DNA of 64,000 bases from Letharia columbiana (taxonomy: Eukaryota > Ascomycota > Lecanoromycetes > Lecanorales > Parmeliaceae). The DNA lies in NCBI RefSeq assembly GCF_014066305.1, contig NW_023501087.1:186001-250000 (forward strand), in the 5' to 3' direction. The notes beneath the pieces were generated by a model, which was not told where the DNA came from, did no database searches, and saw only the letters and a list, made by a program, of their open reading frames with translations. Numbering within the stretch: the stretch's first letter is position 1; each line of letters opens with the position of its first letter. This document shows, one piece after another, positions 1,372 to 52,033 of this stretch. The position numbers and the translations under genes are program-made.

Positions 1372-3137
1372 TTACACGAAATTAGCAAATGGAAGACCAG
1401 TATTCTCCTTGATAAATTCCATAGCCTCAATTACCTGGAGGCATTAGCAACCTGCTACCTGTACCTTGAAGGGGCTCCTTATCATACCTTCTCATCCTCG
1501 TATCTTCGTCCGACTAGTTGCAATGATACTGGGGCACCTTTGTACTTCTCAGGCCCAGACTTCCACAGCTGGTGGTTGTACTCGTCCTTCTCGTTCATTG
1601 GCCTGTAGTCCTGATCTACCACGTCCATTGTTGGGTCTACCTTTGTCACTGGAAAGATTAGCGCTGGATAGTCGAGCAAGTTCCATTGGGCCGTATAGCC
1701 CCAATATCTTGCACAGTCCAGTGGAGGAGCCACCCCTGGGCCTACGGGGCAGAGGATCACATCAACGACGCCTTCGAGCTCACCAGTCTCGCTGGTTCCA
1801 GTCGCGGTGTCGTTCCAAACTTTCGCGTATTCTGTCTTGTAAGTTTCTCTCTTCGTAGTCCAGTGCCAAATCTCCTCAACGGTGAGCCTCTTCACCCATG
1901 GGTTGTCCTTCAGGATGAACTTGGATAACGGTCGCCACGGCTCGCCCGACGCTTCGATGGCAGCAGTCTCTTGTTGACCTCCATCACAGAAATACAGACT
2001 GGAAATGATGCTCCAAGCTTCGTCATGCTTATATGGCTTCCATTCAACAATCTCGACCGATGGCACATTTTTGAGCTTGTCCACCACTTCTTGCAATGCC
2101 CGTAGGACAGGTGGATGCGGCTTGACAACGCCATCGTGCCATATGACTCCAACCTTGAGTTTCTTCCCAGAAGGTTTATCAAGGTAGCTTTCTTGGTCTC
2201 TCCAAGGGAGTGGGACCAATGATGGCTCGTTCAGCCAGGGTTTTCCACTGATTACTGTCTTCATGAACAGCTTCACTCCTTCAAGTGAAGTACTCAGGGG
2301 TCCAAGGACCGCAATAATCTGCTCCTGGCCAAGCATTGTGGCGGACCATCCGCTTACCGGTATCCTGTAGCTTGATGGTCGCAATCCGTATACTCCACAA
2401 TTTGCCGAAGGACTTCTGATGCTGCCTCCGATGTCTGTCCCGAGACCTAGACAACTCCCTCGCAATGCAAGCAGGGCTCCTTCGCCCCCTGAACTACCAC
2501 CAGGAGTCAGCTGACTATTAAAAGGGTTCACAGTCACTCCATAGAGGTTGCTAGACGTCTCGAGGTGCATCAAGGTCTGAGGCTGGGTCGTGCGAGCGTA
2601 GAACACACAGCCGGCGTTGTTTAAGATCTTCAAGACAAGCGCATCATCCTCCCCTTTTCGATCCCACCAGCTAACGAATCCTGCGTTCAATCCCAAATCT
2701 TTCATTCCAATATGCTCTTTGACGCTGATTGGCAGACCATGTAAAGGGCCGATTGGCTTTCCATGCTTAGAGAGGTATTCGTCAAGAAACTTGGCTCGGG
2801 CCATCGCTTGCTCTGGGAGGAGCTCGGTGATACAATTAGCTAGAGCTTGCGCAAGGCCAGCCCGTCGCAGGAATGCATTTGTCACGGTAGTGCTCGTGTA
2901 TTTCCCTGAAGCAAGAGAGGCGACAAGATCCTCAGGTGCTGTCTGAGTAATGACAGTTTCTTCAGTTGAAAGCAAGTACTTTGGGACATCTGTACGATCA
3001 AGAGGTAACTGATCAGGGTCTGGAACCTCAGGGATTGGCGGCTCGACGCGTCGAATGCTATCATCTCGGTGGTTTTGTGCTACCTTTGCAACCTCTTGCC
3101 AGGTTGGCTTGCTCATGGTGGCTGTCGAGTCTTCCAT
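1372..3137 (-). CDS. Amidase (amidase signature family, acetamidase-like), 570 aa
   Basis: The protein hydrolyses carboxylic amides to acid plus ammonia, a nitrogen-scavenging role typical of fungal acetamidase/amidase enzymes. The Ser-cisSer-Lys triad can be read: Lys in the SVKEHIG segment (about residue 139), the cis-Ser in TPGGSSGGEGA (about 214) and the nucleophilic Ser in GTDIGGSIRSP (about 238). The continuous frame stops in an intron at YEDEKV. A GTATGA donor at 1487, a GCTAAT branch site and a CAG acceptor at 1435 define a 53-nt intron. It leads in phase to a 20-residue last exon, 1372-1434, ending PFANFV. The completed length suits the family. There is no signal peptide, so it is probably cytosolic. 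The substrate cannot be told from sequence. Confidence 0.88.
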
Positions 3138-18435: not shown

Positions 18436-19349
18436 TTGAACACGTCGACAGGGTACGCCGATGGGGTGAGGGAGAGATCCAGCTTCGAATTCTCGTAAAA
18501 TGCCTTTTTGAATCATCAAGCACGGTTTAGATCCGTGCATATGCTGCTTCCGTAAGTACAGTCGAACCCCTACTGCGATGCTGGAGACCCACACTACGGC
18601 TTCTTTCTCATTCTCCAACACCTACGTCCTCGTCCAGGCCTCTCGCCATTCATCTTAGATGCTCGCTAAGGAATCAAAAACTTGACTTTAATTTCGTTAT
18701 TCGAGCGACTATCAGTCCACGTACAAGTTGCCATTTAGACTTTAGAGGTCTTTGTTTATTTACATCGCTAGCCATCGCGATAATTAAAAAGTATATCTCG
18801 AGGCGTAGGAGTATTGATTTCAACATCATAGGCCGATCAAGCGAAGAACAAAGTAGATTTGGATGCTGACCTTGGTCTGCTTAGCCGGTTTGATAATCAG
18901 TCTGAGAAGCTTCGACTTAGTAGCGACTTTGGGACGTTCCGATTTGGTGAGGAAGGCCGGCTTAGTAACGGTTTGATGAACTTCAATCCGGTGGAGTGGA
19001 CCAGCTTGGTGTACTCCGGCTTTGTACCGGTATGTAGCTCTTCGGCTTGAGAGTTATTCGCTAGTACGATGTAATACGTTAAAGTAACGAATGAGAGACG
19101 AAGAAATGAGATTGGCGTCAATTGCTTGCAGCTCGTACGAAAACATTGTTTTTGCTATCTGATGCGCTGGGAACAGCTCCTGCATGTACTAGAATTGACA
19201 ATCATCTTATCTAATACATCGTATCTGTGGGCTTTCTCCCTTCATCCTCTGCAGCCTTTCGAGGCAACAACAACACTCGCTCCGGGCTGTGAACCACCAT
19301 ACACAGACGGTCCCTCCTCTCACACAAGGCACAGGCATTATCGGAACCA
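18436..19349. other. AT-richer intergenic stretch without a gene
   Basis: Sequence from about 18660 to 19130 is richer in AT than its surroundings and holds no supported reading frame. It may be old repeat sequence, but I cannot match it to a known element. Confidence 0.35.
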
Positions 19350-22300
19350 TCATCCCATAGACTTCTTTTTCTCTAAACGTCCCTCTATGCAACTTGGTCT
19401 TTGACCCGTTCCAACTGCCTGCATGTTGATCCAGCCTAGTCCCAACTTTGAGTTCCACTCCCCAAACCTCCTTCGAAGTGCCTGAAGAACCTCGTTTGGG
19501 AGGACGTCCGATGAGAAGTTCCCGAGCTTGGCATCGTTGACCGAGAAGGTAAAGGCAACGCTATCCGAAGGCGCGATCGTGATACTTGGGCCTGCCGCAC
19601 CTGAGGTGCCTTGCCCCCTCGATCCATGTCTCGCTGGGCTGACCGAGTCGTCCAGTTGATTTCCAGGACCGGATAGACCGGTAGCCCTCTCAGTGACGCC
19701 GGCCGTTGACTCAGGTGCTTTCCCCAACCTTCGGGCCATGCGTTTGGATTGACCTGCAGACGAAGCTTTCTCTCCTTCGGAAATCATTTGATCATGGCCG
19801 CGCTTGCGGGAGGCCTCCACATAGGGTTCGAGCTCGGTGTTGGTTTCGTCGGCAGTGGTGAGGAGATTGTCACTATCCCTCACCGTGTCAGCATCCTCTT
19901 CCGGTAGACGATCTTGTTCTTCGCTCAGGCGACGGATCGCTGAATGCTCAATTATGCACTTGTCGACAAGCGCTTTCAGTTCGACGTTCCGACATTGAAC
20001 TATGTATCTTTCATCCTTGAGCGACTCGATGGTACCTTGGTTTAAATCGCCCTGCGCATTCCAGCAACACCTTGCAGCAATGTCTTGTCCTGCTCGACTT
20101 GACTTAGCTGAGTATCCTGCTCTCGATTCTTGTCTTCTAGCCTCAGCACATGCGTATTGAGCCTCTTCTGAGATGCACTAGCCTCCTGCCTCTGCTTAGC
20201 AAACTTCAGACTTTAGACTGTTGATGGTTATCTCATTTTCTGGGAGAACGACCACGCGAAAGTTCTGCACCTCGGCCTTGAGATGATCGCGCTCTTTCTG
20301 ACCATCACCAACCGGTTTTGTCGACCTCTGATGGGATTCTGTAGCAGTCCGCAGAGAATCAGTCACTTGAGCAGATCGTTGCTTCAGTAGTTCATTCTGC
20401 CCGTTCACTTCTCCGAGGACCTTGGATAATCTTTCGTTCTCCGCGGTGAGGTTCTGGGAGGTGGCCTCTGCGTTTGCAACCGCTGTGTTCTTGGCACTTA
20501 GTTGGTCATCCAGACCGTTGACACCCACTATTTGTTGCTCGAGGCGGTGGTTCGCTCGCTGCCCTCCGATCAGCCAAGGAACTACATCAGCGATCATCGA
20601 CACTCACCTGCTCCGTCTTCAGCTTCTCCTGAAGTCCGTCGACATTGGTGTTCAATTTTTCGTTGTCGGCCTCAAGAGACCGTCAACGTTCAACCGAATC
20701 TTGGATCTGGGAATCCTTCTGCTTAACGTCAGACTCGAGATTGGCAATCCAAGGATTCGCAGCTGCATCTTCCAGGCGGGTGACGGTGGCGTCCTTTTCA
20801 CTGAATTGAGATTCCAAGGTAGTAATCTTCATCTCGGTTTGCTCAGCGACCGACGTGAGGTCTTGGATCCTCTGGCGTTTAGCATTGCGACCTTCATTTA
20901 GGGCCTGGATCTGGGAATCCTTCTGCTCAACGTCAGACTCGAGGTCGACAATCCTTTGTCTAGCATTCGAAGCTGCATCTTCCAGGCGGGTGATGGTGGC
21001 GTCCTTTTCACTGGATTAAGATTCCAAAGTATTGATCTTGGTCTCGGTCTCCTCGGCGACCAACACGAGGTCTTGGATCCTCGTATTGCGCTCAGTGAGA
21101 AGACGTTGGGTGTTAGAGATTTGTAATCTCAGCTCGGTCTTCTCCCCCTTCAGGGCGCTGTTGTCATTTGCCGCGGCCTGCCACTCTTCGTTACTGTCAC
21201 TGAGGCTTATGTTGAGTGAATGTTTGACGGCCTGGACCTTTTCCAATGCCTGCAACGAGCGTTGATGTGCTTCGCTAGAGACATTAGCCTCGGTAGCCTT
21301 TGTGTTCAGTATAATGTCGAACGACTTCCTCATAACGTTGTCGTGGTCATCCGCTGTAGACAATTGAGTTCGGAGGTCTTGTATCGTGGCCTCCAGTTGC
21401 TGGTTTTCGACTTTGACTGCTCCGACCTCCACGTCGCTGGCAAAACGGCCAGCTGTAAGTTCCTTCTTTTCTTCTGTGAGTTCCCTTACTTGAGATCGGA
21501 GGTCCCTTTCGGTGGCCTCTAGCTGCGGTATGCGGTGGGATCGCAGTCCAGATATCTGCGCTTGGTCCGCCAGATGCTCTTCTTTAGCTGTCTCGAGTTG
21601 CCCGGAATAGCTTTGGTGATACGCCTCTAGGGTTGCATATCTGGCTAGAAGTCCATCGTGCCTTGCGGTCTTGTCAGCGAACTTTCTTCGCATCTCCGCA
21701 AGTGCTTCCACCGCTGCCCCTTTTCTGAACTTTGTCTGCTTTAGGGAGTTGAATTTCTCCATCTCTCTTCCGTGTCTCGTCCTCAGGTCTCCTAATTCCA
21801 GACTCGTCGATTCCAATTTGGCTTCGACCTTCCGAAGGTGCTCTTGCTGGTCAGTGAGACTCTGGTCTTTCTCGGAACAGGTCTCCCGCAGTGTCTCACA
21901 TCGCGTCTTGATAGACGTTACTAGATTTTGGACGTTATCGAGTCTGTGGTCGGCATCGTATCCACTACCCGTTGCGTTAGCAAGGCTCTGTAGAAAGGAA
22001 AGCGCACTTGAAAGCGCACCTCGAAAACTTTGGCTTTCTATGTCATTCCTGCTCTTCGCCTGTTGCAGCTTCGCTTCTGCATTCGCAACAGCGTTCTCTC
22101 TACCATAGAACTCACCAAAGCGAGTGTCCAAATCTTCCCTCTGTTCCGCGAGGTTGGTCTCTGTCGATATCCGAGTAGATTCAAAGTCCCTCTCCCGGCT
22201 TTCCAGCTTTTTGTCTCCTGCCATGCTCTTCTGCATCAAAGGCGGTGACTCTTGACGTATGTCTTGCTTCCCGATTGCCTAGCTCCCTCTCCTGTCCGGC

Positions 22301-22620
22301 TAAGGCCTCTTTCTGCTTGTACAGCCGAGACTTGAGCTCTTCGAGTCGGTTTTGCTCGGTCACGCGAGTCTCTTTGATCCGGAGCTCATTCGCTTGGGTC
22401 TCTTCCAGTGCCTTCTGATTGTTTGACCTCGTCCTTCAGTTTCTGCAACCGAGCGTCAAGCTTTCCTAGCGTACCGTCTCGAGACACGATGGCAGCACTC
22501 CATGCTGCTTGGTGTTGCTCGAGTTGGTTCACAGCAGCCAGTTGACGTTCCTCAAGCTTGTGGAGTGTACCCATCAGCTTGTCGAAGAACCACAGCGTCG
22601 TGATCGTTGCCCTTTGAGTC
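19350..22620 (-). pseudogene. Broken coiled-coil protein gene
   Basis: Long minus-strand frames (21016-22239, 20196-20603, 19350 to about 20040) all read as heptad-rich coiled coil: LEATERDLRSQVRELTEEKK, and LENxxLxxxL-type runs dense in Glu, Gln, Lys and Leu. The C-terminal piece is different: Ser/Gly-rich, then VAFTFSVNDAKLGNF and LQALRRRFGEWNSKLGLG, ending KKKSMG. The pieces lie in different frames, separated by stops (for example near 20040, 20610 and 21015) without convincing introns. I read it as one large structural or trafficking-type coiled-coil gene that has decayed. Multiple unrecognised introns are the alternative. Confidence 0.45.
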
Positions 22621-22706
22621 AAACAAGAGCCGTTTGATCCCTGGCATATTCTTTTTCAGTTCTCGAATGACTTCTGACAACTGCTGCCTCCAGTCGGCGT
22701 CCGCTG

Positions 22707-23135
22707 CCAGTAGGTTTGGCTGTTCAGCCACATGCCTTGTCAATGATGACATGGTGAAGTTGTATAGACCGACCGAGTATTCTGCGGCGGTAAAAGAGGT
22801 TGTCCTTGCGGACTTCCTTGATTGGAGGGAGTTCCCTACCAGTAGGTTTGGCTGTTTAGTCATATGCCTTGTCAATGATGACATGGCGAAGTTGGATAGA
22901 CCGACCGAGTATTCTGCGGCGGTAAAAGAGGTTGTCCTTGCGGACTTCCTTAAATAGGAGGGAGTTCCCTGCCAGTAGGTTTGGCTGTTTAGCCACATGC
23001 CTTGTCAATGATGATAAAGCGAAGTTGAATAGACCGACCGAGTATTCTACGGCGGTAAAAGAGGTTGTCCTCGCGGACTTCCTCAAATTGGAGGGAGAAC
23101 CTCCCTCATGACAGAGGGAGAACCTCCCTCATGAC
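22707..23135. repeat. Three tandem ~132-bp repeats plus 23-bp doublet
   Basis: Units start with CCAGTAGGTTTGGCTGTT at 22707, 22838 and 22972 and are over 90 percent alike by eye. Each contains GACCGACCGAGTATTCT and GCGGCGGTAAAAGAGG. The third ends in two copies of GAGGGAGAACCTCCCTCATG, itself a near-perfect inverted repeat (GGGAG..CTCCC). The array follows the 5' side of the coiled-coil pseudogene. Confidence 0.75.
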
Positions 23136-24234: not shown

Positions 24235-24470
24235 CTAGTAATCATCCGTTCCATCTGCATGCTCGTAGCTAAAAGCGCACCGGATACGCCTCTTAGGGTT
24301 GACGATATTCCGGCAGTTGTAGTCATCCCCTACCTTCATGACGTCGTCTGGTTGTCCCACAAGTATCGATGAGTTGCTCTGTCGCGACCTTTTCGTTCTC
24401 TCCTGGTCCTGCCTTTCGATGTGTACTATGGGACTTCCTTGCCCGACCTGGACTTTGTAAGCCGCGTCTT
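24235..24470 (-). pseudogene. Hairpin-leader family, fragment A
   Basis: The minus-strand frame reads RQDQERTKRSRQSNSS, then VGQPDDVMKVGDDYNCRN, then IVNPKRRIRCAFSYEHADG and TAG at 24235. It aligns over its whole length with the 48-kb copy (QNQERA..SRQGN, VGQP, DEYNCRNIVNPGRRTRCAFSY). Both ends are missing, and no leader is seen upstream. Confidence 0.6.
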
Positions 24471-24734
24471 TGGTGTGACGCGGCCTGTTCCATCAAAGTG
24501 CCTTGGAAAGTGTTCGATAGTGCGTCGAGGCAGGCTTGGAGGGTGTCAACGACGGAGCAGAGGTCTTCTAAGAAAGACGCAGTATTATTGCACTCCAGGA
24601 CTCGGAGAAGTGCGGCAAGGACGGTGAGAGTGCGCGAGTAAAGTGTATTCGTAGGGCCCTTGTTGAGCTCAGCTTGAAGGGCCTTTGCTAGAAAGCCGAA
24701 GAGCGCTGTGGCGTTTTAGAGTAGCTCGCGAGAA

Positions 24735-25015
24735 CGTGTGTTCGGAGGGTATGATTCGCAGATCAACCTCAATGTCTAAACAGACTCCCGCATCGTTGGC
24801 GTTTTGGAGTAGCTCGCGAAGACGTGTGTTCGGAGGGTATGATTCGCAGATCAACCTCAACAAAGTCGTGAGTGGTTGGCTCTGCGGCATGTTCGGAGGG
24901 TATGATTCGCAGATCAACCTCAACAAAGACGTGAGGGGACTCCCGCAGCGTCGGCGTTTGGAAGGAGTTCGCGGAGACAGGTGTTCGGAGGGTAAGACTC
25001 GCAGGTCAACCTCAA
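24735..25015. repeat. Tandem repeats with GTGTTCGGAGGGTATGATTC unit
   Basis: Four copies of a core (TTCGGAGGGTATGATTCGCAG followed by ATCAACCTCAA) recur at 66-87-base spacing, with alternating spacer types. The minus strand reads LLRLICESYPPN repeatedly. The reading frame is not kept across units, so I call it a repeat and not a gene. Confidence 0.6.
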
Positions 25016-25240
25016 CAAAGTCGTGTGTGGTTGGCTCTGCGGCTTGTGTCTCGTATGGAGTTTGGGGGGGAGGGAAGGCGACAAGGACGAGGAATATATT
25101 ATTTTTATATGTAGAAGGTTGCAGGATATTCTGCGGCAGTTGCAAAAGCCAGCCGTCTGCATCGGCATGCCGCACTCGCCCACTGTGAAAGGATGGCGGT
25201 CACGGGCGCGTAGAATGTCGCGTCACGAAGCATTTTCTCT

Positions 25241-25360
25241 GCGTGGCGAACCGTGTACAAAGTCCGCTATCACGTGGATGATTCCAGTCCAGCTGGAATG
25301 ATCGAGACACGATGATCTGCGTGACGAACCGTGTACTCAGTCCGCTATCCCGTGGATAGG
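25241..25360. repeat. Direct repeat pair with a third copy at 26,252
   Basis: GCGAACCGTGT followed by AGTCCGCTATC and CGTGGAT occurs at 25241 and 25319 (78-base spacing) and again at 26252-26290. The linker TCCAGTCCAGCTGGAATGAT is also shared. The first two copies sit exactly where family copy B loses similarity to its relatives. Confidence 0.6.
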
Positions 25361-25883
25361 TCCCCTTGTTGATCCGAGCAATCAAGGATACTCTTGGCGA
25401 TCCAAATCGACCGGCCTCAACCTGTACGTGAGCTGACCAGCCCTTGTTCTCAACATCTCATAGGCTGTCGAGGGGGTCTGTGAAGTCTCCCTTTGCGTCT
25501 TCGTATCCGAAAACGCACCGGGTACGTCTGTCGAGGTTGATGATGTTCTGGCAGTTGAATTCCTTTTCTACCTCCATGCCGTCATCTGACTCTGGAGCTG
25601 CGGAGGGGATTAGCCTCGGCACCAACGTCGATGAGGTGACCTGTCGCCTCTTCTTTCTCTCGTCTTCCTGTGCCTGCTCCTCTTTCCATGCTAATCTCCG
25701 TTTCTTGTACTCTGCCAGACCTTCTTCTCTGGAAAGCACACGAGGGAGAGAACTCTCGAGACTCCCCATTGACAGACCCTCTCCTTGGGCGGGAGGACCT
25801 GGTTGAGCTGTGTCTTGCTGCTGCTCTTTCGAGCTGGAGGAGACTTCCCCCAAAACAGCATATCGATTGCTCGACGAAGACAT
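25360..25883 (-). pseudogene. Hairpin-leader family, copy B (truncated)
   Basis: The frame starts at 25883 with MSSSSNRYAVLGEVSSSSKE, close to the 48-kb MASSSNRFAALADTPSSSKE. It continues QPGPPAQGE, GSLESSLPRVLSREEGLAEY, IPSAAPE and EFNCQNIINLDRRTRCVFGY, then hits TGA at 25458. Beyond the stop the same frame goes on matching (VENKGW, EAGRFGSPRVSLIARINKG) until about 25360, where the direct repeats begin. So it is a family member stopped by a nonsense change and cut short by repeat insertion or rearrangement. A shortened protein of about 141 residues could still be made. Confidence 0.65.
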
Positions 25884-26056
25884 TGAAATTGATAAACCCC
25901 CGAGATTCCTGCGGTGGTGGATTGCTAATGAAAGCAAGAGTCTTACCTACCAAGGTAGGCAAGAGCTGAGATACGGAAAACCCCCGAGATTCCTACGGTG
26001 GTTGAAGCTGGTGCTAGTAAACTAGCCACGTGTGATTGTTACCTACAAGTGTAGGC
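25884..26056 (-). promoter_or_regulatory. Tandem hairpin leader before copy B
   Basis: Reading on the minus strand there are two successive units. Each has a CCTAC..GTAGG hairpin (26042-26055; 25946-25959), then a variable hairpin (26013-26026, GCTAGT/ACTAGC; 25922-25937, TTGCT/AGCAA), then the constant CACCGYAGGAATCTCGGGGG element (25977-26001; 25894-25918). The last constant element ends about ten bases before the ATG. Confidence 0.75.
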
Positions 26057-26964
26057 AACCAGTTGAGAGGCCGGTAGTGATCAGCGCTGAGTCTGGCCTC
26101 GTTCCAGGTCGCACGCGTCTTTTCGCCAACTGGGTTGGTATCTAGAGTAGTAAAATGTTCCAACTTGCGGTCCAGAAAGTCTTTCGCCATGGCGCCGATG
26201 GCGGCGTGGGCTCTTCATCCAGTCCAGCTGAAATGATCGAGACTGCGATCTGCGTGGCGAACCGTGTGCACAGTCCGCTATCCCGTGGATAGGGTAGCCC
26301 CTCTACCACGACCAAGTGCGCAAACATTATCTATATATATAAGTCAGCAATTCTAGTAAGAGCATGACCTACTGGTCATTTGGGGGACAAAGAGAAGATG
26401 GCGATGTATCTTTTAATATTGAAGTCAGCACATGACAGAATTCCATGGTGGGATCGGTAGCACTGAGGCCAGCTCCCGCAGCGAAGGACGCTGGGAGGAT
26501 GCGAAGCAGAGATCAAGGGCAGGGACCAGAAGGTTCAAGGGCCTTCGTAGGCTCCAGGAGCTGGTGGAGGTCAGGGAGCATGCGAACTAGCAGGATGACC
26601 GTCTCATCCGCAATGTTGCTGGCAGTCAGAGATTTGGGCATTGGTCGCACATTCTTACTCGATAGAGCTGCTTGAATGTCATTGTGGCTGCGACATTGTC
26701 ACTTTGAAGGTGACCCGTTGAGGTATACCATTTGTCTTCAACATTGTCTGATACGCTCCTGCTTTCGCCCACAGGTTTCTCAGCGCCGAATGCGCGATGT
26801 CGCGCCGAGCTAGCCAATTCTTGTCTCCGATATGGTGATCGTTATTATGCCTCGGTCCCGCCGAAGAAAGGAATCTGTGACCGTCAGTAATACCAGATTC
26901 TCGATCTTGAAGCACAAGAGAGTCAGCTCTTTGCAATAGCAGCATGCCTTGAGCAAACTGCTCA

Positions 26965-27371: not shown

Positions 27372-27445
27372 AAAACCCCGAGATTCCTGCGGTGTTGGAA
27401 AATCTTTCACTGATGTGAGAGTTAAAATGCTTGTAAAAGCAAGTG
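27372..27445 (-). promoter_or_regulatory. Orphan hairpin leader (copy C)
   Basis: The constant element CACCGCAGGAATCTCGGGG (27372-27393) is preceded on the minus strand by hairpins TCAC-ATCA-GTGA (27407-27418) and GCTT-TTAC-AAGC (27429-27440). No ATG follows at the usual distance. The sequence after it has only a short family-like basic stretch (PKRKHRVSDGEKEG), so the attached gene seems lost. Confidence 0.6.
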
Positions 27446-27474: not shown

Positions 27475-27600
27475 CACTGTGTTGTGGTAGAAGTGTGGAT
27501 GATGGAAGAAGGATGTGGGTGATGGATAAAGGATGTGGGTGATGGATAAAGGATGTGAGTGATGGATGAAGGGTGTGAGTGATGGAAGGGAAGTGCGTTG
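27475..27600. repeat. Minisatellite, GATGGATAAAGGATGTGGGT-type
   Basis: Five to six imperfect 20-base units with the pattern GATGGATRAAGGATGTGRGT run in tandem, with GA/GT bias on the plus strand. Confidence 0.7.
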
Positions 27601-34608: not shown

Positions 34609-36138
34609 TCAAGCCCTCTTCTCATCCCGATAGTGTCCTGCAACCAGAAAAGCCATCTCAAGCGCCTGTTTCTCATTGAGTCTCGGATCACAGTATGTCG
34701 TATAATTAACACTTAGATCCCCCTCCGTCAACCCCTCACTCCCACCAACACATTCCGTCACCGCATCCCCAGTCAATTCGAGGTGCACACCTCCCAAGAA
34801 ACTGCTCTGCTCTCTGTGAATCCTCAACGCACTGCTCACCTCACTCAAAATACTCGAAAATTGCCTTGTCTTCACCCCAGACGGCGTACTCTTTGTGTTC
34901 CCATGCATGGGATCGCATTGCCACACGACTACATGGCCACTTTTCTTCACGGCCTCAATATGGCCAGGTAGCAGAGAAGCGATATTGTGCTCGCCGTATC
35001 GGGTAATCAAAGTGACCTTTCCAATATCTTTTGGCGGATTGACCACATCAAGGAGGGCGATGAGTTCCGGAGATGTCATGGTAGGCCCGACTTTGATGCC
35101 GATGGGATTTTCGAGACCGCGGAAGTACTCGACGTGTGCGCCAGTGAGTTGGCGTGTGCGGTCACCGATCCAGAGAAAGTGGGCGGATGTATTGTACCAG
35201 CCTTTGCCATCGCTAGCAGACTCTTGGTGACCGTTCACCTGCTGATCTGATGATACTCGGGCTGGCAAGAAAGCTGGATGAGAGGGTGGATGTTTTAGTC
35301 TCCTTGTTAAACTCTGCTCGTATTCTAGTAGCAAACCCTCGTGACTGGTGTAGAGATCGACAGTCTCTAAGCCACTTGCACTGCTATCTGCGCCAACTGT
35401 CCTCATGAATTGTAGGCTCTCGGTGATACTATCGACAATCCTGGTGTACTGAGCTCTGATCTTTTCATCTTTCACGTGCCCCAGCTCCCAGTCTAGTGGC
35501 GAATGTAGATCAGCGATCCCTGATGCCAGCGACGCTCTGATGAAATTGAGCGTTGCGGCAGAGTGATAATAGGCAGATACTAAACGCGCTGGATCCGGGG
35601 TTCTGTCTTCTACCGCGTATCCATTTAGTATGTCTCCACGGAAGGAGGGTATCTCGTTTCCCTCGTGCATCTCTGTGGGACTTGATCTTGGCTTTGCGTA
35701 CTGGCCAGCCATCCTCGCAATACGCACGACAGGCCTGTTGGCGCCCCAGATCAGGACCAAACTCATCTGCAGCAGAAGTTTGATCTTCGATTCAATGGCA
35801 TTCTCTTCACAGTAATCGAATAATTCCGCACAGTCACCACCCTGTAGTAGGAACGCTTTGCCAAGAGCAACATCTCGCAGAGACTTCCGGAGTTTGATGA
35901 TCTCGGTAGGTGTAACGATGGGTGGTAGTTGCTCTAGTTTTGCGAGAGCTTTTTGGACTTTAGCAAGGTCATTATAGACAACCTCTTGTTTTATGGGTTT
36001 AGTGGTCCAGGATGATGGCGTCCATTCCGAGCTGCTATTCTTCTGTCGCTTTGTTGTGACCTTGATCTCTGCTGCGGCTTCTCCACTTTTGCTGAGCTTT
36101 GGAGGCTGTATTGGCTCTTCTAGAGGTCTTTTCGACAT
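34609..36138 (-). CDS. 3-deoxy-D-arabino-heptulosonate 7-phosphate (DAHP) synthase, class II, 509 aa
   Basis: The enzyme joins phosphoenolpyruvate and erythrose 4-phosphate in the first step of the shikimate pathway. The class II (plant-like) signature is plain: LLQGGDCAELFDYC with the metal-binding Cys, RIARMAGQYAKPRSSPTE, NPIGIKVGPTMTS, TLITRYGEHNI, VVWQCDPMHGNT (metal His), GGVHLELTGDAVTECVGG and YTTYCDPRLNEKQALE. It is a single exon with a continuous frame. The first ~45 residues are a charged extension absent from bacterial enzymes, of unknown role. No presequence is evident, so it is probably cytosolic. Many ascomycetes carry this class beside the class I isoenzymes. Confidence 0.92.
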   Translation of the reverse strand: MSKRPLEEPIQPPKLSKSGEAAAEIKVTTKRQKNSSSEWTPSSWTTKPIKQEVVYNDLAKVQKALAKLEQLPPIVTPTEIIKLRKSLRDVALGKAFLLQGGDCAELFDYCEENAIESKIKLLLQMSLVLIWGANRPVVRIARMAGQYAKPRSSPTEMHEGNEIPSFRGDILNGYAVEDRTPDPARLVSAYYHSAATLNFIRASLASGIADLHSPLDWELGHVKDEKIRAQYTRIVDSITESLQFMRTVGADSSASGLETVDLYTSHEGLLLEYEQSLTRRLKHPPSHPAFLPARVSSDQQVNGHQESASDGKGWYNTSAHFLWIGDRTRQLTGAHVEYFRGLENPIGIKVGPTMTSPELIALLDVVNPPKDIGKVTLITRYGEHNIASLLPGHIEAVKKSGHVVVWQCDPMHGNTKSTPSGVKTRQFSSILSEVSSALRIHREQSSFLGGVHLELTGDAVTECVGGSEGLTEGDLSVNYTTYCDPRLNEKQALEMAFLVAGHYRDEKRA

Positions 36139-40489: not shown

Positions 40490-43111
40490 TCAAGTAGAAG
40501 AAGCTTCCTCTTGAGCCTTCAGGTGATCTTCGAAGCAGACGTCATCGGCGTCGTAAAGATCTTCATGAGGTGGCCTTCGCTGCTCAAAGTATCGTGTGAA
40601 GAATGAGAGGCATTGCTTCTCGAATCTTTCCAAATTATAAGGAGCACGGAACCAAATGCGCAACTCATAGGGGTGTCGACCTGTGAATACGGCCCCAAAA
40701 AGCTTCTTGACGTCTGGTTTCCGGATTTCGGGTCGGTCCTTGGGGTTGAAGTGCCCTAGGATCTTTGGCCATGCCTCCAGGCTGATGCAGATCAAGCGAG
40801 CCTTCTCTTCATCAGTATTACACGCCGCTAGAACATTGGGGTGGCAGATCTCCCCATTGTCAGGACAGTCAGCTACGCGATGGACTTTAAAGTTGGTGAC
40901 CATCCAGTCACCTTCGATGTAGTCGCCTAGACACCATCCGGTTTGGCTGTATTCCGGCCCTTCTATTCCGTTAGAAAAGAATCTCATGTTCATGGTGGGA
41001 ATCCGCCGGCGTCCTGCATCCAACCCAAGGCTGAAAGCCCATTCTTCCGTGTCTTTGGCGAAGCTGCCTATCAGCGAGGAGTTGTCAGCTTGGATGATGC
41101 ACAAGAACGGATTCTTGGGGTTCTCGAATATCAGCCCAGCGGAATGGGCTTTGCGGGGTCAAGACGGGAGCTCCTGCGTCGACAAGTGCTGAAGCAGAAG
41201 GGTTTCCTTCCGTCGCAACGTCGGGTTCTTCAGTCTTGCTCTCCGGCACACCTGTGGATGCTGCAATGGCTGGCCCCCTAACCGGTTGACTTGGGGAAGG
41301 TGGCCCCACACGCCGACGCTTTGAAGACTCCTCCGCTTCGTCGAAAGATACTGTCCTCTTGCGAAGGCCTTGCGATAGAGCTGCAGAGGGGTTTGGCTCT
41401 CTCGTGAATGTCCTTGAGTTGCCCTGTCGCGAACTCTTCCTTCGCTTCTCCACCTCATCCAATGCCGCTCCTGGTTTCAGGAAGGTGGCTATGCTTTCTT
41501 GTGTGATTGGCACATGAGGAATACTACTCTCGAGACCGCCCGCTGGCATACTATCTGCGTTGTTGAGGCCAAAGTCCCTGGTCTCGAGCTGTTGCGCTGG
41601 CGGGTTCGATGGCCTGAGACTTTGTAGGGCCGATCGAGAGTCACGTTCAATGATTTTCGATATGGGTTGGGCCGTCGCTGGAACCGGGGGAATGACAGTT
41701 TTGGAATCAGCTTTGGTAGTATTCTGAGCTGATGGAAGACGGTAGCCAAAATTTGTGTAGGCAGCAATCTGTTTAGCAGTCAACTCCGCTGGTTCATCAG
41801 AGACCGCAGGTTTATCAAAGACCACGACTGGCATGGGGTTGGCAATCAAAAAGAGCAGCTTCGCCCCTCAGGCGGTTCGACTTTTTTTTGTTCCTCAACA
41901 AGAATCTCTTGCCCGATCTGGATTTTAGAGGTAAATGCGACTGGAGAGTCAACATGAGTGCCTTCAGATTCAAAACGAACCCTCTGTACCATGCCTGTGA
42001 CTTCCAACTCTCCGCGCTTCTCAGGATTGGCAGGCACGGCTCAACTTATGAGTTGATTCTGGTCCTGCATATCTTGGATGATCGGCAGCGGGTTGCCTCT
42101 TCCCTTGGGTGAGGGATCTTATGCATTGTACGACCAAACCCTGGTTTGGTGTCAGGCCTCCACGTTCTCCCTGGCCTCCACGCCCTCTCCTGGCCATTCC
42201 ACGCCCTTTCTGGCCACAGCTTTCGACTGCATGCCATCAGTTCCACGCCCAGGAACTCTGTCTGGTCCCTGAGACCTCTGTTGTCTATGTGCTTCAGGAG
42301 AAACTTGTTTTTCTGTTTTCCTTTTTTTGCCGAAACCTCGGTGTGCGTGATAAGTGAAACATGGCATTGTTTTATCTGGTTTGTCATGACGCCCTTCGAC
42401 GTGACGGCTCCTCCGCGTGGCTCGTTTTGCAATACCTGAGCATAGTTCGTCTGCGCAGGTACTGCTGGTTGTGAAAAGGCGAGGCCCTATACGTCTTCGA
42501 ACTTCGCCGGTGTCAACTGTGATGAGGGCGTATGAAGACGGAGCTCGACTGTCCGCCTTGGGTTATCTCTTTGGGTGGTGAGACTGGAAGAGTCTCGGTA
42601 GACTTGTTGGTATCAATACTTGACACCCCGGGCTTTAGCAGTTTTGAAGCTCATGCTCCTCGGCAGTGGCTCCGGCCATCGATACGCGGTCCATGTCCTG
42701 GAAAGCTGCATCCTCTCTTGAAATGTCGTCGTCATCTTCATCGAGCTTTGACCCGAAAAGTGTAGTCGCCTCTCTGACGTGGATTTTTACCTCACGATAT
42801 GTTCTTACCTTTTCAAGCAAGGCAGAAACTTCTTCTTCTTGCTGCGCAATCTTTGTATTCTTTGCCTCAAGCTGGGTCTCCAGCCTGTCAATCTTGTCTC
42901 GCAAGATGAAATCCGGAATGCCTGTGGGCATTGCGGGACGAAGAGCCTGGTCGTCAGCCTTTTGGGCAGACAGTCCTTTCTCCACCTCGAGTGTGTGGAC
43001 TTTCTGCTCCAGATCCTTGATCCTGGACTTTTGTCGTTCGACTTCCAGTTGAGCTTCCAGCCGTGCCATTTTTTCGGCGATGAGGCCCTGCATGTCAGTT
43101 TGAAGGGACAT
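40490..43111 (-). pseudogene. Hairpin-leader family, copy D (frameshifted)
   Basis: From the ATG at 43111 directly after a leader, the frame reads MSLQTDMQGLIAEKMARLEA and continues as a coiled coil (DRLETQLEAKNTKIAQQEEE). Coding sense then hops frames: a stop in KFEDV*GLAFSQPAV (about 42490), a hop at a T5 run near 41850, and another near 41095. The later parts are family-like: GGLESSIPHVPITQESIATF and SRQGNSRTF at about 41400-41530. Then comes the core domain (IIQADNSSLIGSF, FSLGLDAGRRRIPTMNMRFF, YELRIWFRAPYNLERFEKQC) ending EEASST at 40490. There is no helicase part. The breaks make it a pseudogene unless it is heavily spliced. Confidence 0.55.
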
Positions 43112-43200
43112 GATAGTTTGGAAAAACCCCCGAGATTCCTGCGGTGGTGGAAAACGATCTCAGCAAGTGAGACGTGAATATCCGACTCTTACACTGGGCA
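43112..43200 (-). promoter_or_regulatory. Hairpin leader before copy D
   Basis: The constant element CACCGCAGGAATCTCGGGGG lies at 43127-43146 and its trailing T/C run ends about ten bases before the ATG at 43111. A variable hairpin, TCTCA-CTTGC-TGAGA on the minus strand, is at 43158-43172. The first hairpin (GCCCAGTGTAAG region) is poorly kept. Confidence 0.65.
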
Positions 43201-43456
43201 AGAGAAGGCAAAAGTTGCAGAATGACTTGGTGCAACAGGTGATGAGATTATGAAAGATGATGGTTGTAGAAAAAGAGCATGCTGGTGGTTGTGTTGATAC
43301 AGCAGGTTTTAGGCTTGGCGCTAGTCTCGCTCTTATTTCGTTTTAAAGAAACACCACCACTCATCCAACCTTTCCACACAACTCTTTTGCCATCTCTTTT
43401 TTAAACGCTCTTCCAAAGCTCATACCTTGCCATCTCAGGCAAATATTCCTCGTCTC

Positions 43457-43548
43457 GTACCATCTTTTTGGTACCTGGCAATTAATTGTTCCTTCCTTGT
43501 GGAGGCAATCTTCAACCGCCGCAGGAATCTCGGCGGGTTATCCAAAAA
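43457..43548 (+). promoter_or_regulatory. Hairpin leader before copy E
   Basis: A six-pair hairpin, GTACCA..TGGTAC, at 43457-43474 is followed by the constant element CGCCGCAGGAATCTCGGCGGG (43517-43537). The ATG comes at 43549. Here both flanks of the constant hairpin changed together (CCGCCG with CGGCGG), which extends its stem. Confidence 0.65.
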
Positions 43549-44971
43549 ATGTCTAACCTGATAGACCCCAAAACAGGGAGCAATGGAACGCCAAGCAAAG
43601 GCCTCGAACAGAACCGCAGCACCGGGGAGGAGCTCCGTATGGACGCGAATGTAGCGAGCGACGGGAGCGAGGAGGGCGAGATCCAAGACGATCACGCCAC
43701 CAACGCTGTGGGTACAAAGCGAAAACGCTCGCCCTCGACCGAAGAGACGGGACCTTCGAAGAAAATCAAAGGCCCTGAGCCAACATTCCTCTCATTCAAA
43801 ACAATGAGGCACCCAACGGAGACGATACCTTGTGTAATCAGTATCAACGAACGAGAGCCATTCGGATCACTCTATCCGACAAATCACACACTCACAACCC
43901 GATTGTTCCTTGACCCCGGACGTTTCGGGCCTCCGTCAGTAGCACTGACTTTCACCAAAACCGGATCAGAGACCGGTAGAGGCATTGCCAAGAATGTTTG
44001 GGACATGTTGTCAAACAGTCGGGGGGAATGGGCAATGAATGACGTCCAACACGGTTATGCTACTCCAGATGGGCCCGATCTCAGAATGTCTAATCGAACC
44101 GTGCTCGCCGACTGCAGTAGACGGGACATACAAAATTTGATGTACCTGAGATTCAAGTCTTGGAGCCAAGTATCAGGGTTTCATAAAAAAGAAGAGTTCA
44201 GTCAGGAAAGTGCTGAGATAAAAAATTCGATCAAAACCATGTTTCGGCGTCAAAAAGCATACCAACTGGAGTTGTGGTTTATTGCCCCGTTCGATGCACC
44301 GGACTTTCGTCGACATTGTCTAAGGTATGTATTTCACCGCGAGCTTGGAAAGCAGACAACACCCTTTCGACCATTGGCAAGATTCCCACGGGGATCATTT
44401 CAACCAAAGGTCGGTGCTACCGCTGCCACCGATCTTGGCTGCTCCTTGGAACCAATTGCGCTTGCCTCTTGCCCCAAGACCAGGATAATTGCCGATGCCC
44501 ACAAGACCAAGCAACTTGCCGAATACAACACCTCCAGGCGACCATGCAGGGCAGTCTGCAGCCGAGCCACAGCCAACCCTCACATCTCAGCAGCATCCGG
44601 AAAGTTCGACCTCCACGGCAGCGCAGGATGGCAAGATATCAGATCGTTCGACATCAGTGCCGCCAGAGATCCACCCGACTCCAGAAATGTAGGCAATGCT
44701 GACATTTCGAGCAGGACCTCTTCCCCCATCCGCCTAAGACCAACGAACCAGTACGTCTGGCTTCTCCTTCGGTCTCGAGGCACCCACATCCATACCATCA
44801 CTCATCAGCAGTCCGAGGCCGGGGTTTGTGCCTGATTTTACATTAGGTCCTCTCGATATAGAAGACGAGGAATCCGACTCGGACTCCGAATACGACTCTG
44901 AGTCTGGAAGCCATTCAGATTGGGAAAGGAAGCACGAGGGTCAAAGAGGGGGTGACGGCAGTGCTGCATAG
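43549..44971 (+). pseudogene. Hairpin-leader family, copy E (domain-only, frameshifted)
   Basis: The frame opens MSNLIDPKTGSNGTPSKGLE. It then has a nuclear-signal-like stretch (GTKRKRSPSTEE, GPSKKIKGPEP) and the family core (CVISINEREPFGSLYP, LFLDPGRFGPPSVALTFTK, YQLELWFIAPFDAPDFRRHC). After about 44,400 the best coding sense moves to another frame, Pro-rich and broken by a TAA (about 44487). It shifts again to an acidic tail, ESDSDSEYDSESGSHSDWER, ending GDGSAA at 44971. A GTATGT at 44324 could be an intron donor. There is no helicase domain. The intact first ~290 codons could still be translated. Confidence 0.55.
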
Positions 44972-46532: not shown

Positions 46533-46639
46533 TGTGATGGGCAAGATTTGATGCCTTAACAGTCGACTATGTGACGGCTCTTTCTTGAAAGCCGGGAAAG
46601 CTCTTTACGACTCGGCAATAGTGAATAGCTGCCCAAAAG

Positions 46640-46996
46640 AGGTACTTGGACCGACTTGCGGGCATCATGTTTACATGCAACGCCGCCAAAGCGTCACGAA
46701 TCGAAAAAGCCTCGTTGGAAGGCCTAGATGACGACGTCAAGTATGGTTTCCAAAATCCATTCCTTGGTACCGGGACCCACACGATGGCCATCTGGTTCTT
46801 AGTCTACCCTAATGTGGACAATGCCGTCAAGGCATGGGGCAATGATCTGGAGAGTCCGGTCACTCCCAGGTTTTTAGCATTCTGGTTGTCTAGGACAGCA
46901 GACAACGAGTCCAGGCGGCCAGGGATCTGGGGGACATGGCTTTTCAGACTGGTTAGCCTCTTTTCGATGAGACCTTTCAGGCAAATATCAGTTTGA
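46640..46996 (+). pseudogene. Hairpin-leader family, fragment F
   Basis: The frame reads DRLAGIMFTCNAAKASRIEK, then LEGLDDDVKYGFQNPFLGTG and HTMAIWFLVYPNVDNAVKAW. It matches the 48-kb copy closely (DQLVGIMFSCNSAKVSHMEE, LQGLADDVKDGLKKLLLGIG, HMMTIWLLAYPNVETARKDW). Flanking family parts are absent. Confidence 0.65.
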
Positions 46997-47450: not shown

Positions 47451-47780
47451 ATTCACCACAGGCATCGTCTACTATATAAACCCCCTTCCCTCCCAACACA
47501 ACCATCCCTCCTACATAATCCCAATACAACACATGCAAGGTATCTCCTCCTATAACCTACAAATCTTCTCCCACATTTCCATCCAACGTTATATAGATCC
47601 ATACGCTGGCTTGGCTTTTGTGTCATCTATATATACATATCAATATCATTTCAATCAGCCTCCGGAATGACCGCGGTTCAATTGAACTGGTAAATCCCTC
47701 GCGTCCTCACTCTTCTTTCACCATCAACCCCTCACAACATCTTTGCAAACTGGTCGTACTCACGGCTGCTCCACTCCTTG

Positions 47781-47961
47781 CCTACGTTTGTAGGTGAGAA
47801 CCGCGCTTGCTAGTTCACTAGCATTCTATTTCACCCCGAAGAATACTCGGTGGGTTTTTCCCTTTTTGATTCTTCGCCTACGTTTGTAGGTGAGAATCGT
47901 GCTTGCTGGTTTACCAGCATTCTAACACCCCCGCAGAATACTCGGTGGGTTTATTTTTTCA
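47781..47961 (+). promoter_or_regulatory. Tandem hairpin leader before the helicase copy
   Basis: There are two units, each of three hairpins. Unit 1: CCTACGTTTGTAGG (47781-47794), GCTAGTTCACTAGC (47809-47822), CACCCCGAAGAATACTCGG (47832-47850). Unit 2: CCTACGTTTGTAGG (47877-47890), GCTGGTTTACCAGC (47905-47918), CCCCCGCAGAATACTCGG (47928-47945). GTGGGTTT follows each, and the second ends about ten bases before ATG 47962. Two TTTTT-type runs follow the third hairpins. Confidence 0.8.
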
Positions 47962-50900
47962 ATGGCTTCGTCGAGTAATCGATTTGCTGCCCTAGCGGAC
48001 ACTCCGTCCAGCTCCAAAGAGCAGGAGACCCGAGCGCCAGTCACCGGCACCAACGATACGGGAGACCGTGTCATGCAAGACACAGCTCAACCTGGTCCTT
48101 CCACCGAGGACGCAAGTATGTCCGCATGGGCGCTCTCGAGAGTAGTCTCCCTCATGTGCCAACTCAGGAAGACAATCTAGCCGTCTACAAGAAACGACTC
48201 AACGATTGGCAGAACCAGGAGAGAGCGAAAAATCGCGACAGGGCAACACATCGACATTTGTGGGACAGCCAATCCCCTCCGCGGCTCCAAAATCGCACGA
48301 CGTCATGGTGGTAGAGGACGAGTACAACTGCCGGAATATCGTCAACCCCGGGAGGCGCACCCGGTGCGCTTTCAGCTACTTGCATACAGCAAATGAAAAA
48401 CTTCACTCCCCGATTGGTAGTCTTTGGCAGGTCGAGAACAAGGGCTGGTCAGTCTACCTATATCTCGACGCCGGTCGGTATGGATCGGCAAGTTTGTCTT
48501 TGACATTTCGAGTCAACAAAGGAGACAAAAACGCCCCGCTGTCCAAGAATCCGGACGATTACTACCAATTTGAAGTCACTTGGCGGGCCGGCGTCCTAAT
48601 CGACGGACAGCAGGTCATAGAGGACTTAACAGTGGACCCTCTGATGGCTCTTTCTGATCTCAAACAGGCTCCCTACGACTCGAGCATCGTGGACAGCTGT
48701 CCACCAGAGAAGCGCCACCAGCTGGACCAACTTGTGGGCATCATGTTCTCGTGCAACTCCGCCAAAGTATCACACATGGAGGAGACCTGGTTGCAAGGCC
48801 TGGCTGACGATGTCAAGGATGGGTTGAAAAAGCTACTCCTTGGTATCGGACCCCACATGATGACCATATGGCTCTTAGCCTACCCCAACGTGGAAACCGC
48901 CCGCAAGGACTGGATCGTGCCTTTGATGAGTTCGGTCTCGTCCGGATATCCTGCTTTCTGGCAGTATAAGGCACCAGAGAACAAGGTGGGCCTTACAATC
49001 GAAGATCTTGAGCCGATCAACACTTTCCAGAAGGCAATGTACGTCCAATACCGCGCGAACCGCAACGACAACGGCCAGGTAAGGAAGCTGGAGGACGGAC
49101 GGGTTGAAGAAGACAAGACCCAGATCAGAGGATACCACAACTTCGAGAAACAGCTCAGCTGGGACACATCTTTCGAGTTCGGGGTTTTCAACACAGTTCC
49201 GGTCATTCGAGATGTACAGTTTGAGAAGGGTCAGGTGGCTCACCTCGTCCTTGGAACACATCTCGTCCATTTCGAGGGCCTTCCCAAGGTACCAGTCACA
49301 GGTTTCAAGGGCCTTTACACCATGAAACAGCTCGAAGGGGGGGGTCAGAGGCTTCGTCCGACAGGCAACAGATGGTCCGGTGCCCACTCACGGTGCGAAA
49401 ATCCGGGCCGAATTGGACAACGCAAACCCCCAAACCGGGAAACCACACATGCCTTCCACAGACAAAAGAACCATCTGGAAGGGAACCGTCCTGAAGGACA
49501 TGCAGGTTCCATGCAAAGATACCGGTACAGATTTCTGCGTCTGGTTTCAGATGCCTCTTGTAGGCCGGACTCCTCGCATCCACAAGACCGCCAACGAAAG
49601 ACTTGAGAACCACAAGCTTGTGCGGATGCACATCGAGGTCGTCATCGACGAAACATCTGCCCAGCGAGAGATAGATGGGATGCAGAAACTCGCAGATGAG
49701 ACTTTCAATGCTGGAACGCTGGCTCCCGCCCGCATCGCCCTCATGTCGAACCCCTCGAAGATGACGCATACCACAAGCGATCTGACGGAGAGGAATCCTG
49801 AGATGTGGAGACAATGGGAGGCTTACTGCAGCCAAAAATATGCAGACAACCCAGCCCAGTTGGAAATCGTCACTTCTTTGAAGGAGGTCAAGAACAAAAT
49901 AACGGCGATCATAGGCCCTCCAGGCACAGGCAAGACTACGGTTCTTGCAGACATCACGAACGGGGCCGTGCTGTGCGGTCATACTGTCCTGGTGTGCGCG
50001 GTAAGTAACAACGCCGTCGACAAGGCCGCCAACTCTTGCTGGGAGAAATTCCCAATAGAACACCGTCACAGGTATAAATTCCTTCGGTACGAGACGGCAT
50101 CAGCCGAGCTGCAGGCATACGTAACTCGAGCGGATATCAGAAACCCTGATCGTGCAGGATCCAAATGCTCGTCCAACTTACAAGGCGTCAACTATGCTAG
50201 ATGATGACGACCTGATAGCGCAGACAATGGCCGAAGCCGCCGCATTACAGGGTGAGCATAACAAGCAACTCTTTGCCCTGATCCGGGTTTGTGACGATCT
50301 TTTCGCAAGCACTTCAGAGAGAAGCGGGAAATGGATGAGCCGGAAGAAATCCAACGTTCCGGCTCCAATGACGCTTCCCAATCGTTGCTTCGAGTTGACC
50401 ACTCGAGGACCAGTATCGGGCAGACGCGGACTACCACGCAGAGCTCGCGGCATATAGAGCCGACAAGCTTGACGCTGCCGCAATCCTACACAAGCGTCAG
50501 ACAGGTGACTACCACACCGACGCAGAGCTTGCAGCGCTGGGTGAAGACGCGCTTGATGAAGCGGAGATCACGGCACGTCTGGATGATCAGAGGATCCCAA
50601 GCATCGACCAGCGCGACAAGTCTCTCGAGTACCGGAATCCCCTTGACGCGTATGTCTTGGCCAATGGCGACGTGTCAAGAAAGGCGAAGGAGCATTTCGA
50701 AACTCTGCGAGTTCGAGTCGTCCTTCGAGTCTTTGCAGACACCCAGGCCCTCTTCACGACCTGCAACAACGCCGGTTCCGAGTTGATGGTGCTTGGATTC
50801 AACCCAACTCTCATCGAAATCGATGAATCAGGGCAGCTCACCATGGCTGCGCTCGCGAACGTCTTGACGAGCTTCCACCGATGGCTAGCAGCCATCATAT

Positions 50901-52033
50901 TTGGAGACCCTGCTCAGCTCTTGCCTTTCTTTCAGTCCGGCAGAGCAAACGAGTTTAGGGAGAACGCTACGCTCTCGGTCCTCGCTCTCCTTGAAGAGAA
51001 AAAATATCCGATCCTCCGACTGGTGTTCCAGTATCGGATGGCTCCCGCAATCTCCAAATGGGTATCGGAATTCTTTTACAAGGGATTGTTGAAGAATCAG
51101 AAGTCAGTCCTCATCAACAATTCGGGCTTCGCCAGGTCGCGCATGAGGTATAGAAAAAAATACTATAGAATCGATGGACCAAACGGGGACGGTTCCGAAT
51201 ACTGGATGATCAACGTCGCCAACGGGATCTCGCGGGTGCAGGTCAACAGCACCTCGTTGCAAAATTATGCCAACGCCGATAGGATAGGCACTCTCGTGGA
51301 TCAAACTTTGGCCATGGGGGTGCCCGCGTCTAAGATAACGGTGCTGGTGTACTACACAGGGCAGCTCTCCCTGGTAAGCCACAAGATCCAAGCGACGGCG
51401 GAGGCGAACGGAAGGAACTGGGACCTCAGCGCAGGAAATCAAATCTCCTCCGTCGATTCCTTTCAAGGCGAGGAGAACGAGTTCGTTTTCGTCGATCTCG
51501 TCGTCGCTCACCAACGGCCGGAGAAGACATCAGACGCGGTCAAGGCCGAGGAGAGCGAAGACGACGATGGCTCCGAGGGGTTCAGACGCTCCGGGAGGGT
51601 TACCGCCCACGTCAAGAGCGGCAACCGACTTTGCTGTGCACTTACGCGCGGTAGAAGCTGCGTCGTTGTTGTCTGTCAATTGGCCGCTCTTCTAAGTACG
51701 GTCAAGGCCAAACAGAAGAAGGATCAAGCCGCCGTCAGCGCCATGGCGAGAGACTTCGAGGAACGCAAATTAGTATACAACGACTATACTAGTCTAGACA
51801 CCAGCCCAATTGGCCAAGCGCAGCGTGCTACCTGGACCGAGGCCAGACTTGCCGTTGAGTTGAAGAGGCAGAAGGCGGAGAGTCTTGACTTCCTCAACAC
51901 TCAGTACAGAAAGGTCAAGAAGGCCCGGTACAACGAGGAGTTCCAAGACACAGCCCCCAGGGTGTACCGCACCGCTTCTCGGAGGACCACTCGCCCAAAC
52001 CTGTCTGGAGACGCCGCCGAAGCCGCCGTTTAA
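47962..52033 (+). pseudogene. Hairpin-leader family, copy G: UPF1-like SF1 helicase with N-terminal family domain, frameshifted
   Basis: The start MASSSNRFAALADTPSSSKE follows the leader. The N-terminal ~450 residues are the family region: GALESSLPHVPTQEDN, DEYNCRNIVNPGRRTRCAF, YLYLDAGRYGSASLSLTFRV and HMMTIWLLAYPN. The helicase part shows motif I GPPGTGKTT (about 49920), Walker B as LIEIDESGQLTMAAL (about 50810), FGDPAQLLPF, VFQYRMAPAISK, ISSVDSFQGEENEFVFVDLV and LCCALTRGRS. This is the SF1B order of UPF1/Sen1-type 5'-3' RNA/DNA helicases. Frame breaks: an 8-base insertion (48121-48128), an A run at 48228-48232, a G8 run at 49337-49344, and others near 50140 and 50400. The last 458 codons are open. 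No intron explains the first breaks. Confidence 0.7.

Follow-up and report, generated by a model that had tools for sequence, protein, structure and literature searches.

Cluster-specific leaders of predicted hairpins lie before the start codons of a UPF1-type helicase gene and its neighbours in Letharia columbiana

Results

Genes of the window

The stretch of Letharia columbiana DNA analysed here (the window, 64 kb; positions without a contig name refer to it) holds several genes whose start codons follow a chain of predicted hairpins. The gene at 47962–52033 on the plus strand encodes a UPF1-type SF1 helicase in a broken frame: its ATG opens 72 codons, and further ORFs lie at 48206–49606, 49380–50204, and 50657–52033. 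The UPF1/NAM7-type assignment is based on the AAA_11 and AAA_12 domains and on the nearest solved relatives by sequence, which are NAM7/UPF1 RNA helicases. A fold search with the N-terminal region returned a UPF1-like barrel at a modest Z and gave no reliable match for the first 210 modelled residues. A broken paralogue of this N-terminal part occupies 25458–25883 on the minus strand, where the ATG opens 141 codons.

Upstream of the helicase gene, 43549–44835 (plus) encodes a 428-aa protein that stands alone and is related to part of the helicase N-terminal domain (E 5e-7 to the intact helicase of a second cluster on contig C17, described below). Across 60% of its length, this protein shows 97% identity to one from Letharia lupina, and it has more relatives in Alectoria. 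The protein collection holds 15 other relatives, 10 of which begin with MSN or MSS, which supports the assigned start codon. On the opposite strand, 42635–43111 encodes a 158-aa coiled-coil-like protein with sub-threshold Pfam matches only. A decayed coiled-coil gene at 19205–22752 (minus), whose ATG opens 66 codons, is related from codon 1 to the protein encoded at C17:592033. A further leader, at 27392, is followed by an ATG that opens 43 codons only. Judged by their protein sequences, the leader-bearing genes are of several families, not one, and the dispersed gene family proposed in an earlier sequence-only reading of this DNA is not what we find. Across both clusters, the frame stays open for at least 150 codons from the leader ATG in five of nine cases and for 54 to 141 codons in the remaining ones.

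Broken fragments of the helicase N-terminal region occur in both clusters (window 46550–46909, plus, and 24253–24396, minus; C17:586815–587942, plus), which suggests repeated duplication and decay. Ordinary genes are interspersed: a class-II DAHP synthase gene (34609–36138, minus) sits between leader-bearing genes, and an amidase gene (1482–3137, minus) lies near the left end of the window.

A repeated leader of three predicted hairpins

The leaders share a core, CCGNAGRAWWCTCGG, found in ten mismatch-free copies within the window; with one mismatch tolerated, 100 shuffles averaged 0.13 copies and never gave more than 1. The ten copies make up six gene-proximal sites, three of them tandem. Read toward the downstream gene, each leader consists of two stems that vary among window copies (H1 and H2), then a third hairpin, H3.

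The helicase gene is preceded by a tandem doublet on the plus strand with cores at 47836 and 47931. Copy 1 spans 47777–47854 (H1 47777–47798, H2 47808–47823, H3 47833–47854), and copy 2 spans 47868–47949 (H1 47868–47898, H2 47904–47919, H3 47926–47949; z −5.87), followed by the ATG at 47962. A single leader at 43457–43539 (plus, core 43519; H1 43457–43474, H2 43492–43505, H3 43514–43539) precedes the ATG at 43549, and another at 43127–43204 (minus, core 43144; H1 43186–43204, H2 43155–43174, H3 43127–43147) precedes the ATG at 43111. These two diverging genes, each with its own leader, are separated by a 437-bp intergenic region (43112–43548). The leader at 27374–27441 (minus, core 27392; H1 27428–27441, H2 27404–27421, H3 27374–27397) is followed by an ATG 61 nt past the stem. 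The helicase paralogue carries a second doublet on the minus strand (cores 25998 and 25914), with copy 1 at 25978–26059 (H1 26038–26059, H2 26011–26029, H3 25978–26004) and copy 2 at 25897–25964 (H1 25941–25964, H2 25922–25937, H3 25897–25917) before the ATG at 25883. The decayed coiled-coil gene is headed by a tandem triplet at 22768–23130 (minus; cores 23052, 22919, and 22787, with periods of 133 and 132 nt; ATG 22752), whose repeat unit takes in the first codons of the gene.

All five sites of the sequence-only reading are present and share one design, as it described; it overlooked the triplet (cores 22773–23052, minus), and two of its sites, 25884–26056 and 47781–47961, are tandem doublets. 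Eight of the ten copies fold more strongly than their shuffles (z −2.15 to −5.87), and the copies at 27392 (z −0.70) and 43144 (z −1.03) fold no more strongly than theirs.

The helicase-type starts (25914/25998 and 47836/47931) have H1 in common and differ in their H3 loops. The H3 of the helicase paralogue is the one found at the 43-kb genes, as if H3 had been exchanged.

Several other repeats lie close by. A minisatellite of ~20-base units (ggatgtgggtgatggataaa) at 27490–27600 adjoins the 27392 leader (by eye), some three copies of the unit ctgcgtggcgaaccgtgta..agtccgctatc surround the broken helicase paralogue (25240–25360 and 26210–26300, by eye), and coding-like tandem repeats of the string gaggttgatctgcgaatcataccctccgaacac occupy 24650–25000 on the minus strand.

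Some copies contain GTGAG..CTAAC..CAG-like strings, which raises the question of whether the 5′ UTR holds a small intron or an introner-like element. The 47931 copy offers a plausible 5′ site, branch site, and CAG (by eye), but the 5′ splice string is absent or altered in other copies and not conserved among the ten (by eye), and the would-be 3′ site falls within H3. We consider an intron very improbable.

A second cluster with its own leader family

Contig C17 carries a second cluster at 588–610 kb, with an intact helicase relative, a relative of the coiled-coil gene at 22752, and its own leader family. The C17 helicase (C17:594105–598406, 1433 aa) is 28–38% identical to the window pieces, and its other matches in the genome are confined to adjoining C17 fragments and helicase-core matches on C5, C151, and C45. 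Its ATG is preceded by a hairpin chain with letters unlike those of the window leaders. A pattern built from this leader and that of the neighbouring coiled-coil gene, with up to three mismatches, placed all ten of its genome matches at C17:588297–609676, one 21-kb cluster, and gave none in a reversed control.

The C17 leaders precede a 298-aa coiled-coil gene, a 458-aa gene, the helicase gene, and a coiled-coil gene at 600883, where the leader ATG opens 54 codons and the coiled-coil frame is a different one. A tandem array of six leader copies lies at 609176–609676, with the next ATG 111 nt beyond its end. Within the helicase leader (L046, C17:598565–598413, minus), an upstream ORF of 50 codons runs across the hairpins and terminates 6 nt short of the helicase ATG; at the other three C17 leaders examined, upstream ATGs are 166–247 nt back.

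The 458-aa gene matches the window gene at 22752 (tblastn) with 34% identity over 41 residues from codon 1 (E 2e-4) and, further on, with 64% over 33 residues (E 1e-6). Public relatives of the 458-aa protein, P0018 (E 1e-62) and P0019 (E 2e-44), match the decayed 22752 gene as far as their C-terminal ends. Since the two genes are related from codon 1, the leaders of related genes differ between the two clusters. Outside both clusters, a broken relative of the 458-aa gene (L156, C38:290219) has no structured leader (−11.7 kcal/mol). The protein collection contains 16 helicase relatives (30–92% identity) and three relatives of the 458-aa protein, and the pair is probably linked elsewhere too, as a helicase relative, P0002, and a relative of the 458-aa protein, P0017, are on contigs of equal length, 18,752.

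Distribution in the genome

Searches covered the 52.2 Mb of the genome in 161 contigs. Of ten exact matches to CCGCAGRAWWCTCGG, seven lay in the window and one on C41, and the remaining two, on C79 and C138, had a variant core; the reversed control gave two. Under a looser pattern, nine of the 11 genome matches with at most one mismatch lay in the window; all matches to it amounted to 89, hardly more than the 82 in the reversed control. The window-type core is confined to 25 kb of the window and one C41 copy; a strong hairpin precedes this copy, no long ORF follows, and it may be a relic or chance. The leaders are confined to two gene clusters, and their sequence is cluster-specific. Copies unrelated to start codons, which the sequence-only reading had proposed to look for, are not the rule; the exceptions are the C41 copy, the 27392 site, and, at 111 nt from the next ATG, the array at 609 kb in C17.

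This distribution bears on whether the leader is the end of a mobile element or a captured cassette, in which leader and first codons move or are copied onto different ORFs. Different genes do have a leader in common, often with a Met-Ser start, the copies are in part tandem, and the C41 copy is solitary and without a long ORF. A transposon terminus should appear as dispersed copies genome-wide, but no scattered copies were found in 52 Mb, the window type being concentrated in the window and the C17 type in one cluster, and in C17 the similarity continues upstream past the leader. The gene-capturing transposon end suggested earlier is thus not supported, and a mobile cassette is in our judgement unlikely. 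The second codon is Ser in eight of nine leader-bearing genes of both clusters, compared with 3 of 40 other ORFs of at least 150 aa; this Ser may reflect shared ancestry of the first codons or be part of the element.

Spacing to the start codon

Measured from the end of the H3 stem, the distance to the following ATG comes to 15, 13, 61, 15, 9, and 12 nt at the six window sites (61 nt at 27392) and 16, 19, 15, 21, and 111 nt at five C17 sites. The ATG had earlier been placed about 6–12 bases downstream in four cases; the distances are 9–15 nt at five of the six window sites. Nine of the 11 leaders end 9–21 nt before an ATG (chance 0.165 each, p 3.6e-6, a value to be read in the light of a range picked after the data were seen). 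In all nine, the preceding 100 nt are free of ATG (chance 0.24 each).

These 100 nt have a mean MFE of −29.9 kcal/mol (range −24.3 to −36.9), against −20.9 for 40 other ORFs (p 4e-4), which were taken from six frames at a length of at least 150 aa and of which many are surely not genes. The mean MFE of 600 random stretches is −22.4 kcal/mol, and 12.7% of them fold as well as the leader median. The sense strand folds better than the antisense strand in 15 of 20 leader stretches, yet in just five of nine of the 100-nt stretches before the ATG, so the strand bias of folding does not prove an RNA.

The distance to the ATG is free for a promoter site and fixed for an element read by the initiating ribosome. 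A DNA-level explanation, in which a shared promoter or transcription-factor block is homogenised within each cluster and the hairpins are inverted-repeat binding sites, fits a CT-rich/TCAAG block seen by eye upstream of the C17 leader in four of five aligned copies, and the strand bias does not decide against it. It accounts poorly for the short ATG distance, the ATG-free 100 nt, the bulged H3 in two sequence families, and the G-T pairs in the stems, although the assignment of these stems was manual and its pairing rules permit G-T. We rate this explanation as a real but clearly lesser possibility.

Shape of H3 and covariation

Separate RNAalifold runs on the two families agreed on the form of H3, in which a single base on the 5′ side is left unpaired between the stem and two upper pairs; the loop above them has four bases in the window family and five in the C17 family. 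This bulged layout was seen in 53 of 6818 hairpins from 3000 random 100-nt folds of both loci. The C17 helicase leader has its two upper H3 pairs broken.

Four of the six C17 H2 pairs are changed on both sides, with every cell paired, and no shuffle out of 500 reached the covariation score of C17 H2 and H3 together; the count of doubly changed pairs was reached by 46 of 500, and that of pair types by 34 of 500. Compensatory changes, as expected of a structured RNA leader, are therefore present in C17 H2, though they represent few independent events because six of the ten rows come from one tandem array. Five of the seven C17 H3 pairs never vary, 58 of 500 shuffles reached the score of the window-family H3, and the window H1 and H2 gave no alignment across copies. 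Covariation thus supports C17 H2 and is weak for H3.

The pairing also bears on plain inheritance, by which gene duplication carried the 5′ UTR along and the structure is functionless. The two window helicase paralogues do have both leader and coding start in common. The proteins behind the leaders are not all alike, however, the C17 H2 stems covary, and C17 repeats the H3 layout in other letters; we hold plain inheritance to be distinctly unlikely.

Comparison with known elements

At the gathering score, Rfam 15 gave no match in the window, the C17 helicase leader, or two further stretches (L049 and L001), in line with the earlier statement that no fungal element of this form is known. With E values up to 1, two leaders matched only SNORD22 (17.5 bits of the 50 needed) and mascRNA-menRNA (20.3 of 42.5), both on the strand opposite to the gene. 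A literature search, with most subscription papers outside its scope, found no description of this leader.

The iron-responsive element is a bulged 5′-UTR hairpin that prevents initiation once its protein binds; its bulged C lies five pairs below a six-base loop. The leader, as a presumed 5′-UTR element, resembles it in that a short loop tops a hairpin with one bulged base and in being common to functionally linked genes. It differs in loop size and bulge-to-loop distance, with two pairs and a loop of four or five in its consensus folds, in having no Rfam match, in using one letter set per gene cluster, and in comprising up to three hairpins, some of them tandem; we therefore do not class it as an iron-responsive element.

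Another element of similar shape is the coat-protein operator hairpin of MS2-type RNA phages, a translational off-switch adjoining the start codon. Like H3, it has one 5′-side bulged base two pairs below a four-base loop, beside the start codon; the leader stands in a fungal genome with no known reader protein, and the likeness is one of shape only. An RNA regulon is one cis element on the mRNAs of several genes. The leader would match this description if it is, as we infer, part of the mRNAs, but its genes are clustered in the genome, with an own element per cluster. The predicted leader structure and the spacer before the ATG would be compatible, and only compatible, with an IRES.

Discussion

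Hairpin leaders of predicted H1-H2-H3 structure stand at a short, narrow distance before the ATGs of neighbouring genes in two clusters, and presumably lie within the mRNAs. We propose, with modest confidence, that this 5′-UTR leader is a common translational control element of different neighbouring genes, among them that of a UPF1-type RNA helicase. An RNA element acting on translation was one of the three options offered by the sequence-only reading, and it is the best supported, by the ATG spacing, the ATG-free 100 nt, the paired changes in C17 H2, and a second family with the same H3 layout. A shared promoter, the second option, is likely too in view of the C17 upstream block, and leaves the spacing and the pairing unexplained.

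As a translational control element, the leader would consist of two hairpins of free sequence, H1 and H2, and a fixed terminal hairpin, H3, with a predicted lower stem, one 5′-side bulged base, two base pairs, and a loop of 4–5, ending 9–21 nt before the start codon. By analogy with yeast reporters, a strong fold this close to the ATG would lower initiation and make the leader a brake. In one such study (PMC7445769), 5′-UTR hairpins 15 nt before the ATG had no measurable effect when weaker than −22 kcal/mol, whereas expression fell steeply, with transcript level unchanged, when they were stronger. We take the leader to be a brake because all nine close-spaced leaders are below −22 kcal/mol per 100 nt, on the understanding that these energies come from several short hairpins per 100 nt and those of the yeast constructs from single 27-bp stems. 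The synthetic hairpins are thus similar in predicted energy and in position, but designed and not a natural shared element.

Somewhat less securely, a protein may recognise H3 and lift or set the brake. The first candidates for such a reader would be the helicase encoded in the cluster itself or the stand-alone N-terminal-domain protein, since a UPF1-type RNA helicase is present in both clusters under the leader of its neighbours. With a reader of its own, the genes of one cluster could be controlled together.

A bolder version, which we regard as doubtful, is a private lock and key: the genes of a cluster would share one repressive leader, H3 would be recognised, and opened or closed, by that cluster's UPF1-type helicase or by the stand-alone relative of its N-terminal domain, and letters and protein would coevolve, which would keep two clusters within one nucleus from cross-talking.

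Structured 5′-UTR elements common to several different genes are, to our knowledge, rare in fungi. The kind of element, a structured 5′-UTR control element, is already known; what is new is a leader that belongs to one gene cluster alone and whose layout, though not its letters, is repeated in another. That the terminal hairpin of a cluster-private leader recurs in layout with different letters suggests that an RNA tag and its reader co-evolve, and leader and UPF1-type helicase offer a concrete candidate pair for cluster-specific translation control. If the lock and key were true, these clusters would make up a fungal gene system that is self-contained, controlled at translation, and possibly selfish.
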